From: Mesorhizobium sp. BR1-1-16 | GTDB taxonomy: Bacteria > Pseudomonadota > Alphaproteobacteria > Rhizobiales > Kaistiaceae | Length of the DNA: 63,092 bases | Direction: 5' to 3' | Assembly: GCF_020165495.1 (NCBI RefSeq) | Contig: NZ_JAIUIE010000017.1 | Location: forward strand, 1-63,092 | Shown: piece by piece, positions 44,748 to 57,808 of the stretch | How positions within the stretch are numbered: position 1 is the first letter of the stretch | Layout of the letters: each line of letters opens with the position of its first letter | Notes under the pieces: generated by a model | Seen by the model: the letters and a program-made list of their open reading frames with translations, nothing else | What the model was told of the DNA's origin: nothing | Databases searched by the model: none | Position numbers and translations under genes: made by a program

Positions 44748-45490
44748 GCCGCGGCTCCGACGTGTTGTGCCGCAGGCTCGGCCTTGCGCATCGCGGTCCA
44801 ATCGCGGGCGCCGGTGCCGCGTTTCCAATGCCCGACAAAGACATTCCCGACAGAGAAGGGACCGGAGTCACGATGTCTCAGAAGGCCGTAGCGGCCCCGT
44901 CCGCGCTCTTCCCACTTGCCGGAAGCCTGCCAGACCGCCCACCATTCGCCGAGCGTCAGTTCCCAGCGGATACCGCGGCCGTTGGCGGCGTTGCGCTGGC
45001 GAACGTAGGCGTGCGTCGGGCCGGCGAAATCGCCCCGGCCTTGCTCGCGCATCTGCCGGTTCATCTGCAGCAGGTATTGGCGCTCGCTCTTGGTGAGGCC
45101 GAACTTCTGCATCAACCGCTCGTCCTCGGCCTTGGCTTCGGCGCGGCGCTTAGCCTCTCTTGCCGCCGCAGCTTCCTTCAGTCCGCCACGGTCAGTTTTC
45201 ATGACGCCGGCCGGCCTGATGATCTGCCGAACGCGCTCTCGCGTCAGACCGTAATGCCCCCCGATTTCCTGGAGGGTCAGGCCGTCGCGATACATGGCCG
45301 CCATTGTGGTGGCCCGATCGGTGTAGCCCGCCGCAATGGCCGGGTCCTTGGCCTTCCTGCTGCCCGGCTTGCGGCCCCTCTTGAGTTCGCCTTGCACGAC
45401 ATCGAACACGGTCGACAATTGCTGCATCCGGCGCTCGCCGAGAAGTCGGGCAAGCGTTGGCGGAACGACGAAAACCTCGCGGGTCATCAT
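44744..45490 (-). CDS. Hypothetical protein with sigma-70 region 4-like HTH
   Basis: 248 aa starting at the ATG overlapping the Cro-like stop (ATGA). AAMYRDGLTLQEIGGHYGLT followed by RERVRQIIRPAGVMKTDRGG is a region-4-like helix-turn-helix (LxEIGxxxGLTRERVRQI). The remainder is Arg-rich and ends in a basic/Ala tail; LTLGEWWAVWQASGKWEERG may be a separate small fold. Second gene of the leftward early transcript. Confidence 0.65.
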   Translation of the reverse strand: MMTREVFVVPPTLARLLGERRMQQLSTVFDVVQGELKRGRKPGSRKAKDPAIAAGYTDRATTMAAMYRDGLTLQEIGGHYGLTRERVRQIIRPAGVMKTDRGGLKEAAAAREAKRRAEAKAEDERLMQKFGLTKSERQYLLQMNRQMREQGRGDFAGPTHAYVRQRNAANGRGIRWELTLGEWWAVWQASGKWEERGRGRYGLLRHRDSGPFSVGNVFVGHWKRGTGARDWTAMRKAEPAAQHVGAAA

Positions 45491-45690
45491 GCTGCTGCCT
45501 CTGACGCGGTGTAAAAATCCTGAGCCCGCACATCTCCGTTCGTCTCCGCAGTGATGCGGGCCATTTGCTCGGGACGGGGGATTCGTTCGCCGTAGCGCCA
45601 CTTTCGGACGGCTGCGGCCGATGCACCGATTTTCAGCCCGAACTCTTCGTTCGAGATGCGGTTTGAGCGGAGATAGTCGATGAGCTTCAT
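45487..45690 (-). CDS. Cro/YdaS-like repressor, probably leaderless
   Basis: 67 aa. MKLIDYLRSNRISNEEFGLK followed by IGASAAAVRKWRYGERIPRP, then EQMARITAETNGDV, matches the YdaS/Cro HTH family. In-frame ATG 45696 lies directly against the -10 box, so the ATG at 45690, where transcription should start, is preferred; the message would be leaderless. It is divergent from CI and should compete at the same operators. Confidence 0.78.
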   Translation of the reverse strand: MKLIDYLRSNRISNEEFGLKIGASAAAVRKWRYGERIPRPEQMARITAETNGDVRAQDFYTASEAAA

Positions 45691-45696
45691 ATCCAT

Positions 45697-45738
45697 CAAC
45701 TACCCCATAGCGGGGTATACGTCAACCCCAAATCGGGG
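45697..45738 (-). promoter_or_regulatory. Leftward early promoter with paired CI/Cro operators
   Basis: On the minus strand: -35 TTGACG (45720-45725), 17-bp spacer, -10 TAGTTG (45697-45702). Operator 1, CCCCATAGCGGGG (45703-45715, within the palindrome TACCCC-N5-GGGGTA at 45701-45717), fills the spacer and abuts the -10. Operator 2, CCCCAAATCGGGG (45726-45738), abuts the -35. Centres are 23 bp apart, about two helical turns. A TATACG at 45716-45721 on the plus strand may be the -10 for CI. Confidence 0.72.
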
Positions 45739-45775
45739 CGCGCGGGCCTGGGGCAGTTTGGGGCACAGTCCGCTC

Positions 45776-46348
45776 ATGAAAAAGAACGGGTTAGCCTCTC
45801 TCCGCGCCGTGCGAGACTGGACGCAAGAGCACACGGCGATGCTCGCCGGGCTTTCGCTTGGCGGGTATCGGAAGCTCGAATACGGCGAGCGTGAGTTGAA
45901 GGCCGCCCAGATCGAAAAGTTCGCCAGGCTATTCGATGCGAGCGAAGCCGAGGTCATGGGGCGCGAGGGCCGGGCTACCGTCCCGCTTGTCGGCTATGTT
46001 GGGGCTGGAGCCGAAGCGCATTTCTATGCCTCGGCGGATGATCCCCGCGAGACGGTCGACGCACCTGACGGCGCAACGGATGACACCGTCGCGGTCGAAA
46101 TCCATGGCGAAAGCTTGGGACCGCTATTCGATAGATGGATCGTTTTCTATGACGAAGTGCGAAGCCCGGTCACGCCAGACCTGATCGGCAGGCTTTGCGT
46201 CGTCGGCCTCATCGATGACCGGGTCCTGGTCAAGAAGATCCAGCGATCGCGGTCCGGCGCCTACATCCTGCTGTCGAATACCGAAGCCCCGATGGTCGAT
46301 GTCGAAATCGCGTGGGCGGCGCGTGTTCGCAACATGGTCCCGAGGTAG
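45776..46348 (+). CDS. CI/LexA-like prophage repressor, XRE plus S24 peptidase
   Basis: 190 aa from ATG 45776; an upstream in-frame ATG would place coding sequence over the operators. N-terminal HTH: LRAVRDWTQEHTAMLAGLSL, GGYRKLEYGERELKAAQIEK. The autocleavage site is A77-G78 (VGYVGAGAEA). The S24 dyad is S113 (IHGESLGPLF) and K153 or K154 (RVLVKKIQRS). It should bind the CCCC-N5-GGGG operators, hold lysogeny, and self-cleave with RecA after DNA damage. Confidence 0.88.
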   Translation: MKKNGLASLRAVRDWTQEHTAMLAGLSLGGYRKLEYGERELKAAQIEKFARLFDASEAEVMGREGRATVPLVGYVGAGAEAHFYASADDPRETVDAPDGATDDTVAVEIHGESLGPLFDRWIVFYDEVRSPVTPDLIGRLCVVGLIDDRVLVKKIQRSRSGAYILLSNTEAPMVDVEIAWAARVRNMVPR

Positions 46349-46796
46349 CGGCAGGACGAACCTTCCGCCAATTGACGGAATGTTGACCGCGTGCTCGCTC
46401 GCGTGTGTCACGTGCATACATAGTCCTGAGATGATGGGGAAGGTTTCGGCCTGAGCCAGGTTTCAGATGCGCTTCGCTTACGCTGCTGAGCAGCACTGCT
46501 TCGGCCGTTGGCCTCGCGACTTCAACCTTCCGAATCTTCTTCCCGACAAACTTTCTTTGCAGCGGCAGGGAAGAAAAGAACGTCTGAGGTTGTGCACCTT
46601 TGCCCTGTGCCCGCGCGGGGGACGTTGGTTTGTCGTTCCAAAAATCGGCCCCGTCAAGGAATGAAATTCTATCGCGCGTCCGTACGCACGGAGAATAGAG
46701 CACGTGCGCGAGCGCGCAGAATGACCGTGTCCGATCGGTAGCAGGATTTTTCAGCCGCCGCCCGAAATACCGCCTCCAACAAAAAGTTCACGCATG
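46349..46796. other. Gene-free stretch between CI and the rightward promoter
   Basis: About 450 bp (540 to the next gene) with no supported ORF; frames on both strands lack ribosome sites and family-like sequence. Base composition is mixed, with AT-rich pieces (near 46525-46580 and 46650-46700) unlike flanking genes. TTGACG/TTGACC occur near 46372-46391 without a convincing -10. It might hold a small RNA or further regulatory sites. Confidence 0.5.
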
Positions 46797-46838
46797 CCCC
46801 ATTGCGGGGTTGCATTGTTCCCCATTGCGGGGTACAAC
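46797..46838 (+). promoter_or_regulatory. Rightward early promoter with paired CI/Cro operators
   Basis: -35 TTGCAT (46810-46815), 17-bp spacer, -10 TACAAC (46833-46838). Operator 3, CCCCATTGCGGGG (46797-46809), abuts the -35; operator 4, the same 13 bp (46820-46832), lies in the spacer and abuts the -10. Centre spacing is 23 bp. Every spacing is identical to the leftward module at 45697-45738. The predicted start near 46845 precedes the gene at 46888. Confidence 0.78.
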
Positions 46839-46887
46839 GTCCCCATCAACCGCAGCCGCCACGGCGCAGCGATGAGGGGAACCGCAA

Positions 46888-47220
46888 ATGACCACGCTTC
46901 CGTTCGATGCCGAGCTCCCGCTCTGGTTCAACACCGAATGTGCTGTCGCAGGATGCGTCTCGACAGACGACGGTACCTCGGCCCCGTATTTCCGCATCGA
47001 GACTGTCAGCGTTGCCGGCGAAGACATCCGTCCGTCTATGCAGCACCGGCCTGCGGATGAATTGCGCGCGCTGTTCAACGTTGTCACCGCATCGCTGATT
47101 GCGCAGCAAGTGAACGACCCGAGCAACAGGTATGGCCGAGATCTTCTCGATGACGCCAAGCGCATCGAGAAGGACTGGCGCGCTGATGCCATGCGCGATT
47201 TCCGCGAAGCCGCCGAGTAG
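46888..47220 (+). CDS. Hypothetical phage protein, first gene of the rightward operon
   Basis: 110 aa with GAGGGGAAC upstream. MTTLPFDAELPLWFNTECAV, then EDIRPSMQHRPADELRALFN and a helical C-terminus (LLDDAKRIEKDWRADAMRDF). No family known. Its place right after the CI-controlled promoter makes it an immediate-early product. Confidence 0.58.
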   Translation: MTTLPFDAELPLWFNTECAVAGCVSTDDGTSAPYFRIETVSVAGEDIRPSMQHRPADELRALFNVVTASLIAQQVNDPSNRYGRDLLDDAKRIEKDWRADAMRDFREAAE

Positions 47221-48250: not shown

Positions 48251-48399
48251 CCCACGGCGACGCCCTTCTCTGGCTCTGCATCGGCCTGAGCGCTCTGGCG
48301 GTCCTCTCATGCATCGTTGTCGCGGCGCATCGGAGCTTCGGCAGCCGGTCGGCGGATCGCACGGAATACGACGCCTATTGGCGCGACGGCGAGCGCTGA
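48247..48399 (+). CDS. Small single-pass membrane protein
   Basis: 50 aa: MTHGDALLWLCIGLSALAVL, then SCIVVAAHRS, one N-terminal membrane helix and a polar, acidic/basic tail (TEYDAYWRDGER). ATGA-coupled to the HNH gene. Unknown function. Confidence 0.5.
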   Translation: MTHGDALLWLCIGLSALAVLSCIVVAAHRSFGSRSADRTEYDAYWRDGER

Positions 48400-48421
48400 A
48401 CACCCTTCAAGGACCACCGAC

Positions 48422-49354
48422 ATGATCACCGCCATCAACGCGCCGTCTGGCCTCATCGATACCGCCGGCTGCTATGCCGATCTCGACATCGATCGTTATC
48501 ACGGCCAGTGCACCGAAGGCCCGAGCATTTCCTCGAGCGGCCTCCGCACGATCTTCACCGACAGCCCGGCCCATTATTGGGTCGGCTCGTCGCTCAACCC
48601 GAACCGCGTCGGCGAAGACCAGAGCGAAGCGCTCATCCTTGGTCGCGCTGCACATCATCTTCTGCTCGGCGAGAAGGACTTCGGCCGCCTGTTCTCCGTC
48701 CGGCCCGATAAATGGGATTCGTGGCGCAGCGATGCGGCCAAGGCATGGAGGGCGGACGAGGAAGAGGCCGGTCGCACCGTGCTCCTGCCGGGCCAGTTGC
48801 AGACCATCAAGGGAATGCATGCCGCGCTCAAGGAGCACCCGCTCATCGGCGGCGCTCAGGGACGCATTCTCGACGGCGCGATCGAGCAAAGCCTGATCTG
48901 GCAAGACCCGATGACGGGCATCTGGCTCAAGGCCCGCCCCGATGCGATCCCGACGGCCTCAGGCGATTTCGCCGACCTCAAGACCGCAGCCAGCGTCGCG
49001 CCGGAAGACCTGTCCCGCGCCGTCTCCGATCGCCGGTACGACATGCAGGCCGCACTGGTGAAGTGGGCCGCGAAGGCTGTGCTCGACATCGACATGACCG
49101 ATTTCGCACTGGTTTTCGTCGAAAAATGCCCCCCGCATTGCGTCGAGATCCGCGTGATCCGACCGGACGATATCGCCGAGGCCGAGAACGATCTCCGCGC
49201 CGCGCTCCAGCTCTTCGCCAAGTGCCTAAAGAGCGGTCGGTGGCCGGGCCCTGGCGGCTCCCTTTCCGATCTCGCCCCGGTCGGACTTTCAGAATTCGCG
49301 CGCCGCCGTGCTGCGGATCGCCGTGCCTTCATTCAGCAGGAGATTGCAGCGTGA
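48422..49354 (+). CDS. RecE-like exonuclease (PD-(D/E)XK, exonuclease VIII type)
   Basis: 310 aa. SSSGLRTIFTDSPAHYWVGS then SEALILGRAAHHLLLGEKDF are the N-terminal signatures. The catalytic core is IWLKARPDAIPTASGDFADL followed by KTAASVAPEDLSRAVSDRRY (D...DxK: RPDAI and ADLKT) and YDMQAALVKWAAK. It resects DNA ends to give 3' tails for the RecT annealase encoded next. The two genes overlap (GTGA). Confidence 0.86.
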   Translation: MITAINAPSGLIDTAGCYADLDIDRYHGQCTEGPSISSSGLRTIFTDSPAHYWVGSSLNPNRVGEDQSEALILGRAAHHLLLGEKDFGRLFSVRPDKWDSWRSDAAKAWRADEEEAGRTVLLPGQLQTIKGMHAALKEHPLIGGAQGRILDGAIEQSLIWQDPMTGIWLKARPDAIPTASGDFADLKTAASVAPEDLSRAVSDRRYDMQAALVKWAAKAVLDIDMTDFALVFVEKCPPHCVEIRVIRPDDIAEAENDLRAALQLFAKCLKSGRWPGPGGSLSDLAPVGLSEFARRRAADRRAFIQQEIAA

Positions 49355-50592
49355 CCCAGGTCGCCACCATCACTGAGCAGCCCCGTCCGTCGCGCCAATT
49401 CCTCGAGGTCTCCGACGCGATCCCAGTCCTCGACACGGCGAGGTTCGAGCACATGCACCGCATAGCGACCGTGATGGCCAAGTCGAGCCTCCTGCCGAAG
49501 ACGTTGACGTCAATCGGCAAGAAGGACGAGGAAGAGCCGCTGCCCTACGAGCAGGTTCTGGCCAACGCCTTCCTCGTGGTGAACCAAGCCGTCCGTTGGG
49601 GCCTAGATCCCTTCAGCGTGGCGCAGTGCGTATCCGTCGTTCACGGCAAGCTCTGCTACGAGGGCAAGCTCGTCGCCGCAGTGATCGAGGCGAAGGCGGG
49701 CATTCGCCTGCACCACCATCTGGACGGGAACGGCGAGGCCCGGCGCATCTATTTGTCCGATGTCGCCTTCACGGCCGAGATCATTGCCATCCTATCGCCC
49801 GGCATTCGGCTTCCCGGCATGCGCCTGTTCGACGGCTCGGTCTCGGAATGGAAGACGACCGGCCTCGGCTCTCCGTGGAAAGCGACGAACTTCGACCGGA
49901 TGCTGATCTATCGCGGCACCCGCGACTGGACGCGCATTTACGAGCCGGCCCTCATGCTCGGCGTCTACACCGAAGACGAAATGATGGATCTCGCCGACAA
50001 CGCCCGCGCAGCTCGCGCTAAGCCGATTGGGGGCATGGCCGAGCGCCTTGCCGCGTCCAAGGGCGATGGCGGCTTCTCAACCGCGCGCGTCGAGACCGAG
50101 ATCGCGGCCGCAGTAATCAGCAGCAACAGCAAGGAGGAGCCGCACCAGCACCATGCAAGCGCCCCGGCGGCAGAAGCCGAGACCCCAGACCAGAGCCACA
50201 ATGCCCCGGAGAGCCGCGAGGACCGCGAGACTGTCGCGACCGAAGCCACGCCAACTACAGGCGAAACAGCGGCAACCTCATCGAACCTGTCCGAGCCGGT
50301 AGAAGGCGAAGACGGAAGAGCGGAGAGGGGGACGGTCGCACCCCGTCTTTCCCTCTCCGCTGATGACCGCGCGTTCCTCGGCCGGTTCGCCACTGCGCTT
50401 CGACCCGGCACGGACAGTAAGGAGCTGTTCGATCTTCGCCAGAAGTTCGGCAAGGCGGCCGGGATGTGGCCGTCACCCGGCACCGACCTGCGCAAGGGCA
50501 TCGAGAAGATCTACGCGATCGAGACCAGCCGCGCCGTCGGCGAGTTCGGCCCCGAGGATGCCGACGCTCGGGTCGAGGACTTGCTGTCATGA
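49351..50592 (+). CDS. RecT-family single-strand annealing protein with extended C-terminus
   Basis: 413 aa from GTG 49351 with AGGAG 8 nt upstream. RecT core: YEQVLANAFLVVNQAVRWGL followed by DPFSVAQCVSVVHGKLCYEG and KLVAAVIEAKAGIRL, then IYRGTRDWTRIYEPALMLGV. Residues about 235-340 are low-complexity (Ala/Glu/Ser/Thr) linker. A small C-terminal domain follows (LSADDRAFLGRFATALRPGT). With the RecE-like nuclease it forms a Red-type recombination pair. No single-strand-binding protein gene was recognised nearby. Confidence 0.86.
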   Translation: MTQVATITEQPRPSRQFLEVSDAIPVLDTARFEHMHRIATVMAKSSLLPKTLTSIGKKDEEEPLPYEQVLANAFLVVNQAVRWGLDPFSVAQCVSVVHGKLCYEGKLVAAVIEAKAGIRLHHHLDGNGEARRIYLSDVAFTAEIIAILSPGIRLPGMRLFDGSVSEWKTTGLGSPWKATNFDRMLIYRGTRDWTRIYEPALMLGVYTEDEMMDLADNARAARAKPIGGMAERLAASKGDGGFSTARVETEIAAAVISSNSKEEPHQHHASAPAAEAETPDQSHNAPESREDRETVATEATPTTGETAATSSNLSEPVEGEDGRAERGTVAPRLSLSADDRAFLGRFATALRPGTDSKELFDLRQKFGKAAGMWPSPGTDLRKGIEKIYAIETSRAVGEFGPEDADARVEDLLS

Positions 50593-56388: not shown

Positions 56389-56720
56389 CCGGGGCGGCTG
56401 CACAGAGGCGGCCTGAGCGGGTTCGCGCGCCCGTCGCCGCAACCATCCTTGGAATCGAGGTTCGCACTGTGCAAGCTTTGGCGGCGCGCGGCGAACTGCC
56501 AGGGGCGGCCAAGGTCGGCAAGCTGTGGACGTTCGATGAGACCGCGCTGCGTCTCTGGATCAAGGAGCGTTCGGCATGTCCGAAAGACCAAGAGCACCAA
56601 AGCACACCTACTGGCGGGGCGATACGCTATGGGCGCGATTTACCGTTGCAGGTCGCGAATTCCGTGAAAGCCTCGGAACAGGCTCTCCGAAAACTGCGAC
56701 AAAGCGGGTCGCAGAGATGA
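56385..56720 (+). CDS. Excisionase-like HTH protein
   Basis: 111 aa. Residues 10-60: RVRAPVAATILGIEVRTVQA then LAARGELPGAAKVGKLWTFD and ETALRLWIKER form a winged-helix HTH of the MerR/Xis (HTH_17) type. It overlaps the integrase gene by 145 nt in another frame, so the region after residue 64 may be constrained by int. Position just before int supports excisionase or recombination directionality. Confidence 0.72.
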   Translation: MTGAAAQRRPERVRAPVAATILGIEVRTVQALAARGELPGAAKVGKLWTFDETALRLWIKERSACPKDQEHQSTPTGGAIRYGRDLPLQVANSVKASEQALRKLRQSGSQR

Positions 56721-57676
56721 GGGACAAGGTCATAGGCCGCGCGCGTTTTGGTGAGACCGCGCACCTATGGGACGACGCCATCGTCGCTTGGGCCGACTAT
56801 ATCAAGCAGCAAGTCGGCTCGGCTCGCACCGTGGCGCGCTATGCCAATTCCCTGTCGATCGCCGGCCGCACGTTCAGCACGCAGCCCATCGCAGATATCG
56901 GCAAGGACGAGATCAATCAGTTTGTGTCGGCCCGTCGCAAAAGCGGCGTGACCAATGCCACGATTCGCCGCGACCTGCAGGCGATATCGTCGCTGTTCGA
57001 TTTTGCGGAGGATGAAGGCTGGCGGGAGGGGAACCCGGCCTTGGACAAGATGCGGCGGCTCAAGGAGCACCGTGACCCGATCGCCCTGCCAGATGAGGCG
57101 GACTACGAGTTCGTCTTGTCGAGGCTGTCAGATGGTCACGCCGACATGCTGCGCGCGGCTCGCGCGACAGGCATGCGCCAGAATGAGCTGGCCACGATCA
57201 AGCGCAAGGACTTCAACGCCGCGAAGGCGAGCCTGCTGCTGATCGGCAAGGGGCGGAAGCAAAGGACCATCAGTTTGTCGCCCGAGGCCGTGGTGATTCT
57301 GGCCCGGCAACCGATCGCGCTTAAATGCGAGACGATCTTTCATCACGGCGGGAAGGCGATCACGCAAGCCGCGTTCATCTTCTCGCGTGCCAGGCGCGCG
57401 GCGCAGGCGGCGGCACAAAAGGCGGAGCGTCCGTTCAGGGGGTTCCGCTTCCACGACATGCGGCATCTCTATGCCGTCGAGTTCCTGCGTGCCGGCGGCG
57501 ACATCTATGCCCTCAAGGAGCATTTGCGCCATTCGTCCGTGAAGACGACGGAGATGTATCTGGAATTCCTGACGCCAGAAGAAGCCGAGATCGCGAAGCG
57601 CGGTGCCCGAAAGGCGCTTGACGCAGCGCGCGGCTTGGGTGAAGAAGCCGCGCCTGTTCGTTCCGGCCGCGGTTAG
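56576..57676 (+). CDS. int: Tyrosine recombinase integrase
   Basis: 366 aa. N-terminal arm-binding part (YWRGDTLWARFTVAGREFRE), core-binding SAM-like domain (residues 60-160), catalytic domain with R201 (GMRQNEL), H293 and R296 (FRFHDMRHLYA), H319 (LRHSSVKTTEMY) and nucleophile Y328. All five key residues are present. It ends 93 nt before the tRNA-Thr at attR, the expected place for a site-specific integrase using this tRNA. Confidence 0.95.
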   Translation: MSERPRAPKHTYWRGDTLWARFTVAGREFRESLGTGSPKTATKRVAEMRDKVIGRARFGETAHLWDDAIVAWADYIKQQVGSARTVARYANSLSIAGRTFSTQPIADIGKDEINQFVSARRKSGVTNATIRRDLQAISSLFDFAEDEGWREGNPALDKMRRLKEHRDPIALPDEADYEFVLSRLSDGHADMLRAARATGMRQNELATIKRKDFNAAKASLLLIGKGRKQRTISLSPEAVVILARQPIALKCETIFHHGGKAITQAAFIFSRARRAAQAAAQKAERPFRGFRFHDMRHLYAVEFLRAGGDIYALKEHLRHSSVKTTEMYLEFLTPEEAEIAKRGARKALDAARGLGEEAAPVRSGRG

Positions 57677-57768: not shown

Positions 57769-57808
57769 GCCGGATTAGCTCAGCGGTAGAGCAGCGGTTT
57801 TGTAAACC
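57769..57808 (+). repeat. attR: 40-bp att core, 5' half of the intact tRNA-Thr
   Basis: Perfect copy of 1481-1520. Because this side carries the full tRNA, the chromosome's 3' tRNA half joins here and the first half is the phage-supplied copy, assuming crossover within the repeat. Confidence 0.95.

Follow-up and report, generated by a model that had tools for sequence, protein, structure and literature searches.

Paired operator-like sites on both sides of a prophage cI gene and their likeness to the lambda immunity region

In phage lambda the pL promoter drives the recombination genes. Measured from centre to centre in the lambda record (NC_001416), OL1 and OL2 are 24 bp apart, OL2 and OL3 20 bp, OR1 and OR2 24 bp, and OR2 and OR3 23 bp. 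At pR, OR2 overlaps the TTGACT (locus 2589-2594) by three bases and OR1 overlaps the GATAAT (locus 2612-2617) by four, and the operator overlaps at pL are also three (-35) and four (-10) bases. According to the available excerpt of one report, PR is overlapped by OR1 and OR2, and CI stimulates expression of its own gene (PMC4488713). When it comes to function, the excerpt of a second one describes repression of PR and activation of PRM once OR1 and OR2 are occupied, and looping for which an octamer at OR12 and OL12 suffices (PMC3708714).

The window analysed here is a stretch of DNA of 63,092 bp. Four sites of the form CCCC-N5-GGGG flank a cI gene in this window, two on each side (Table 1). 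As judged from their sequence and surroundings, these sites and the flanking genes very probably represent the immunity region of an integrated prophage, with OL and OR of the lambda type.

Genes, sites and promoter-like sequences of the prophage

A direct repeat of 40 bp is found in two exact copies, one at 1481-1520 and one at 57769-57808, where it forms the 5' part of a tRNA-Thr(TGT) gene. Together with the adjoining integrase gene, the repeat probably marks attL and attR and hence the prophage ends, about 56 kb apart.

The cI product also matches PHROG 5823. Its S24 match reaches 21.0 bits against a cut-off of 23.3, and HTH_31 and HTH_3 likewise stay just below their Pfam cut-offs. The alignment to LexA is weak (E 0.6); in it Ala-Gly, Ser and Lys line up with LexA residues that we take to be the cleavage site and the catalytic pair. 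Relatives of this CI occur in phage records of Mesorhizobium and Ruegeria and, more weakly, of Microcystis, which makes an alphaproteobacterial host likely. The cI and cro-like genes are divergent with operator-like sites between them, and a putative second early promoter with such sites, assigned from sequence and position, is located beyond cI and directed away from it. The left module looks like a pR serving cro, and the right one like a pL serving exonuclease VIII, RecT and the integrase. An RNase H gene is also found to the right of cI, listed after RecT and before the integrase. The stretch between cI and pL is without an assigned gene and contains an ORF of 65 aa (46467-46664, + strand).

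Table 1. Predicted features of the immunity region and of the genes to its right (window positions)
Feature	Position	Strand	Basis or remark
cro-like gene, 67 aa	45487..45690	-	PHROG 35, E 1.6e-07; HTH_3 and P22_Cro below Pfam cut-offs
pR -10, TAGTTG	45697..45702	-	position; placement of the cro ATG in relatives
OR1-like operator (predicted)	45703..45715	-	in pR-like spacer, touches -10; counterparts in relatives, some degenerate
pR -35, TTGACG	45720..45725	-	position; GTCAA between both sites in many relatives
OR2-like operator (predicted)	45726..45738	-	touches pR -35; centre 45732, 44 bp from the A of the cI ATG
Putative pRM	45740..45768	+	-35 place 45740-45745, -10 place 45763-45768; weak, inferred
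cI, predicted HTH and S24/LexA-like repressor, 190 aa	45776..46348 (with stop)	+	PHROG 4, E 1.4e-11
OL2-like operator (predicted)	46797..46809	+	touches pL -35
pL -35, TTGCAT	46810..46815	+	sequence and position
OL1-like operator (predicted)	46820..46832	+	in pL spacer, touches -10
pL -10, TACAAC	46833..46838	+	sequence and position
pL leader, can fold into a hairpin	46842..46879	+	ahead of ATG 46888; z -1.17
First gene of pL-like operon	46888..47220	+	no PHROG or Pfam match up to E 0.01
Exonuclease VIII-like gene, pL-like operon	48317..49354	+	PHROG 412, E 2.7e-67; start uncertain
RecT-like annealing protein gene	49396..50592	+	PHROG 561, E 4.6e-28; start uncertain
Integrase gene	56576..57676	+	PHROG 1, E 1.5e-46

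The original prediction had named four copies of CCCC-N5-GGGG in two pairs with equal spacing, and a scan of the window bears this out. The centres are at 45709 and 45732 on one side of cI and at 46803 and 46826 on the other, 23 bp apart in each pair. A scatter of many such sites over the prophage had been given as grounds for refuting the prediction; the scan for exact sites found none beyond the four in the whole window. With one mismatch allowed there are 24 positions, overlapping ones included. The sequence also agrees with the description of the two promoters. Read leftward the order is site, TTGACG, 4 bp, site, TAGTTG, and read rightward it is site, TTGCAT, 4 bp, site, TACAAC, so that at both promoters the site in the 17-bp spacer touches the -10 sequence and the other site touches the -35 sequence.

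The number of sites is at the level of chance. Four matches were found against 1.81 expected, and 15 of 100 shuffled windows had at least four, which is not significant. In the 5.2 Mb genome the motif occurs in 40 places, compared to 37 for a reversed control pattern. Counting of the motif was therefore dropped as evidence by itself, and it is the pairing and not the number that carries weight. Among the 40 places in the genome, the only non-overlapping pairs less than 60 bp apart are the two that flank cI. Among 400 windows simulated with a first-order Markov model, a pair at 13-60 bp turned up in two windows and a set of two pairs in none, so the claim that the match in spacing is unlikely by chance stands.

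A consensus promoter scan of 45400-47000 called neither pR nor pL at threshold; the assignment of the -35 and -10 sequences is based on their position and on the relatives. The -35 sequence of pL and both -10 sequences are weak. Position 45690 is the A of a cro ATG, and the predicted transcription starts near 45690 and 46845 fit the geometry. This ATG is found 12 nt beyond the edge of OR1 and cro is predicted to be leaderless; further in-frame starts are present at 45696 (ATG) and 45699 (TTG). The hairpin of the pL leader is not significant on its own. Several relatives have a small hairpin, for instance CATCGC-N-GCGATG, just past the -10 sequence of pL, followed immediately by GGAG and soon after by an ATG, and the leader in the window is a longer version of this.

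No third site is recognisable in either module. Beyond the pair, no site with at most one mismatch was found at 45600-45800, and from cI to 46900 the only extra site with one mismatch is at 46609, 188 bp before OL2. Negative autoregulation of cI through OR3 is therefore predicted to be weak or absent. A candidate in the position of lambda OR3, GGGCAGTTTGGGG (centred at 45757 and, like its lambda counterpart, 19 bp from the ATG), was rejected as a mere half-site. The interval between OR2 and the cI ATG contains, at 45749-45764, the direct repeat TGGGGCA..TTGGGGCA, made up of half-operators, one of which is centred 19 bp from the cI ATG, the place of lambda OR3. A third operator is not taken as essential, since OR3 and OL3 mutants of lambda still loop according to the excerpt cited above (PMC3708714).

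Recurrence of the layout in relatives

Viral contigs were scanned for the pattern site-TTG-gap-site, in which a -35-like TTG is placed between the sites, and the mis-oriented pattern site-CAA-gap-site served as control. The first pattern was found in 18 viral stretches. Twelve of these contain a CI-family ORF; they hold 13 matches, every one of which points outward from cI. The stretches with no such ORF are L039, L179, L180, L182, L183, and L185. The control pattern was found in 27 viral stretches, none with a CI-family ORF when the same three CI queries were used. As the control count is inflated by a few near-identical repeat families, the raw numbers of stretches (18 vs 27) were dropped as evidence and only the link to CI differs. 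A nearly identical CCCC-N5-GGGG-CAA pair with a spacing of 22 bp recurs without a CI-family ORF in L051, L194, L196, L199, L203, and others. The scan of related phages, proposed along with the original prediction, thus found the promoter pattern recurring beside CI-family ORFs.

Both flanking pairs are present in L184 (24 and 23 bp). For the genome relatives L221 and L224 the spacings read 24 and 24 bp. G238, the one genome taken further from a scan of 397 genomes of the same order, encodes a CI relative (33% identical), and past the end of its cI gene there is a TTGACC pair with a spacing of 24 bp. A four-site search with a loose palindrome cut-off gave a convincing set in 18 of 28 loci; L190 had a short flank, L219 had no set, and L002, L017, L218, L223, L225, L226, L228, and L229 scored near or below their own shuffles. 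A search for 15-mer families found nothing for the window, probably due to its stricter palindrome cut-off, and an open pair pattern run on the viral contigs showed, among the matches listed, no sharp spacing peak over gaps 0-30.

Relatives with other operator words were picked by their CI protein. The scan with alignment A3 kept 80 of 99 CI relatives, and L230 and L238 were left out since their contigs had already been used. Two of the 78 remaining loci had short flanks and six had no qualifying pairs, which left 70. These were scored for palindromes that resemble one another and are arranged as two pairs with spacings of 14-60, using five shuffles per locus. A clear four-site set (score at least 103, the largest shuffle score being 95 or less) was found in 36 loci, six of which duplicate the four sites of another locus exactly. 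The words include AATGC..GCATT, TGCCC..GGGCA, AGCACA..TGTGCT, ATACC..GGTAT, and TTCTC..GAGAA, and the HTH regions of the aligned CI proteins differ from one operator-word class to another. The pair downstream of cI is spaced 23-26 bp in 27 loci and 30-36 bp in nine, among them L248 with a poor second site. A third downstream site is present in L258 and L233, which were counted by their 23- and 24-bp pairs; their top-scoring quadruples read 41 and 44. Between OR1 and OR2 the spacing is 22-25 bp in 21 loci and 32-34 bp in 11, while four gave no clear value. There was no clear set in 34 of the 70 scored loci, and the best spacings there scatter. This group includes L231 and L232, whose repressors are 69% and 68% identical to that of L184 and where degenerate versions can be seen by eye. 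L237 has three sites on the cro side, at -78, -44, and -1 of cI, and is without a downstream pair.

The distances to the start codons were studied in 16 loci of the CCCC class, namely the window, ten picked by their operator pair, so that one flank was selected for there, and five picked by protein. L186 and L190, where cI or the flank is cut off, were left out, and the near-duplicates L044/L189 and L067/L191 are included. OR2 is 43-46 bp from the cI ATG in all 16, as placed by hand with at most one mismatch in 11 loci, two in three, and more in L017 and L222. GAC, as in TTGACA, starts at position +10 from the OR2 centre in 12 of the 16 and at +9 and +11 in one each, and is missing in L177 and in the window. 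The pRM of the window also has a poor -10 sequence, and the case for activation of pRM by CI is thus weakest in the present prophage.

That OR2 is always about 44 bp from cI had to be narrowed. Among the 36 loci with clear sets the distance is 43-46 bp in 16, 40-42 bp in 11 (including L257, with no ATG at that place) and 31-32 bp in four, with five not placed; in the class with the ATGC word it depends on the choice between two in-frame ATGs. The cro ATG is found 11-13 nt past the edge of OR1 in 12 of the 16 CCCC-class loci and in 10 of 13 protein-selected loci, the latter being drawn from those of the 36 that have OR2 at 43-45; L280 shares its sites with L222. Such a distance leaves room for a -10 sequence and 5-7 nt, which suggests a leaderless mRNA.

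In 11 of the 16 loci a third site with at most one mismatch has its centre at -1 relative to the cI ATG, against a null rate of 0.00154 per position; its right half consists partly of the conserved Met-Gly codons, so coding constraint may contribute. It is missing in L181, L187, L222, L226, and the window. A perfect CCCC-N5-GGGG covers the start codon in L067, L191, L223, L044, L178, and L189, and here the first cI codons (Met-Gly) would double as operator DNA.

The comparison with relatives supports both that the sites are CI/Cro operators and that the two promoters share one design, with two sites each about two helical turns apart, as originally predicted. A wider proposal, to which we give about even chances, is that these loci belong to a family of lysogeny switches where the lambda geometry is fixed and the operator word drifts freely. 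The pairs would be spaced about 24 bp or, with one helical turn more, about 34 bp. One large class would have leaderless mRNAs for both genes, with a distance of 43-46 bp between OR2 and the cI AUG and of 11-13 nt between OR1 and the cro AUG. In the CCCC class a third operator would overlie the start codon of cI, whose first codons would also serve as operator DNA, and the present prophage would have lost this third site.

The proposed switch and other explanations

CI dimers would bind as cooperating pairs to OR1/OR2 (45703-45738) and OL1/OL2 (46797-46832), and each pair would block RNA polymerase at an outward-facing early promoter. From pR, expression would run leftward into cro and further genes, and from pL it would run rightward into the genes for exonuclease VIII, RecT and, at a greater distance, the integrase. 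A CI octamer may bridge the two pairs, which are about 1.09 kb apart. At OR2, which is 44 bp away from the ATG of cI, bound CI probably activates the weak and putatively leaderless pRM, as it does in lambda at 42 bp, and Cro is predicted to compete for the same operator words. Cleavage of CI, stimulated by RecA after DNA damage, would open both promoters. The prophage would then resemble a natural OR3-minus, OL3-minus lambda, in which looping by an octamer is possible and negative autoregulation of cI is weak.

The sites could instead serve mainly Cro or another regulator of phage or host, with CI using different sites. CI and Cro of the window share a similar recognition-region pattern, RKxxYGER, and the sequence is thus silent on which of them binds better; moreover, the Cro of PY54 binds a single operator, as described in the excerpt of PMC4488713. 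We nevertheless find this explanation improbable, as the operator word changes along with the HTH region of CI across the relatives and the sites go together with CI-family ORFs (12 of 18 stretches, compared to 0 of 27 for the control). That the palindromes act as RNA hairpins, attenuators or terminators is very improbable even though GC-rich inverted repeats can form stems. All four are upstream of or inside the predicted promoters and so are not part of the predicted pR and pL transcripts, the sole terminator-like site in 45400-47000 is found away from them at 46717-46700, and AATGC-N5-GCATT and other AT-richer words show the same geometry. Low-complexity repeats in GC-rich DNA, or chance, would fit the unremarkable count and the pairs of the motif at gaps 0-30 in 50 of 397 genomes of the same order, many of those listed being simple repeats, but can hardly account for equally spaced pairs at outward promoters around cI, when no simulated window had two pairs of any kind, or for the repetition of the layout in relatives.

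The findings indicate that the lambda OL/OR layout, including its helical phasing and the distance from OR2 to cI, persists in distant temperate phages with repressors for widely differing operator words. Such phages would supply candidate orthogonal pairs of CI and operator, and prophage operators could be sought by geometry rather than by sequence. The present prophage is predicted to be a member without negative autoregulation of cI. What goes beyond routine is the constancy of the geometry across drifting operator words, and the prediction that the cI and cro mRNAs have no leader.

Comparison with vB_MseS-P1, PY54 and lambda

Among the matches listed, a literature search gave none on the present operator word or layout in alphaproteobacterial phages, and we do not claim that it is absent from print. 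Mesorhizobium phage vB_MseS-P1 (PP232116) encodes a CI that is 48.9% identical over 98%. It is similar to the present prophage in having a small divergent repressor gene and, past the end of cI as well as ahead of cro, outward promoters with related words. It differs in that OR1 and OR2 are about 33 bp apart, the second sites are degenerate, and a site with one mismatch covers the cI ATG; its set scores 96 against a shuffle maximum of 93. In the telomere phage PY54 the cI and cro mRNAs are both leaderless by RACE, like the prediction made here, while the excerpt describes a single Cro operator (OR3) and not a design with two pairs (PMC4488713).

The original prediction contrasted the present sites, which occlude the promoter spacer, with the three-operator layout of lambda. 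This contrast fails, since OR1 and OL1 of lambda also fill the spacer and overlap the -10 sequence, while OR2 and OL2 overlap the -35 sequence. What does set the present modules apart is the lack of a recognisable third site, compared to three sites per module in lambda. The operator word, a 13-bp GC palindrome, is also unlike that of lambda, the modules are about 1.09 kb apart instead of about 2.4 kb, and the cro ATG is placed as in a leaderless mRNA while lambda cro is preceded by AAGGAGG. In both the prophage and lambda, cI is located between outward-facing pL and pR in mirror-image modules of identical geometry, with a spacing within the pairs of 23 bp in the window and 24 bp in lambda, and OR2 is 44 and 42 bp, respectively, from the cI ATG. 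Cro is under pR in both, and the gene order, with divergent cI and cro on one side and exonuclease, RecT and integrase on the other, is as in lambda. The layout itself is thus of the already known lambda type, and the present prophage is one more case of it.
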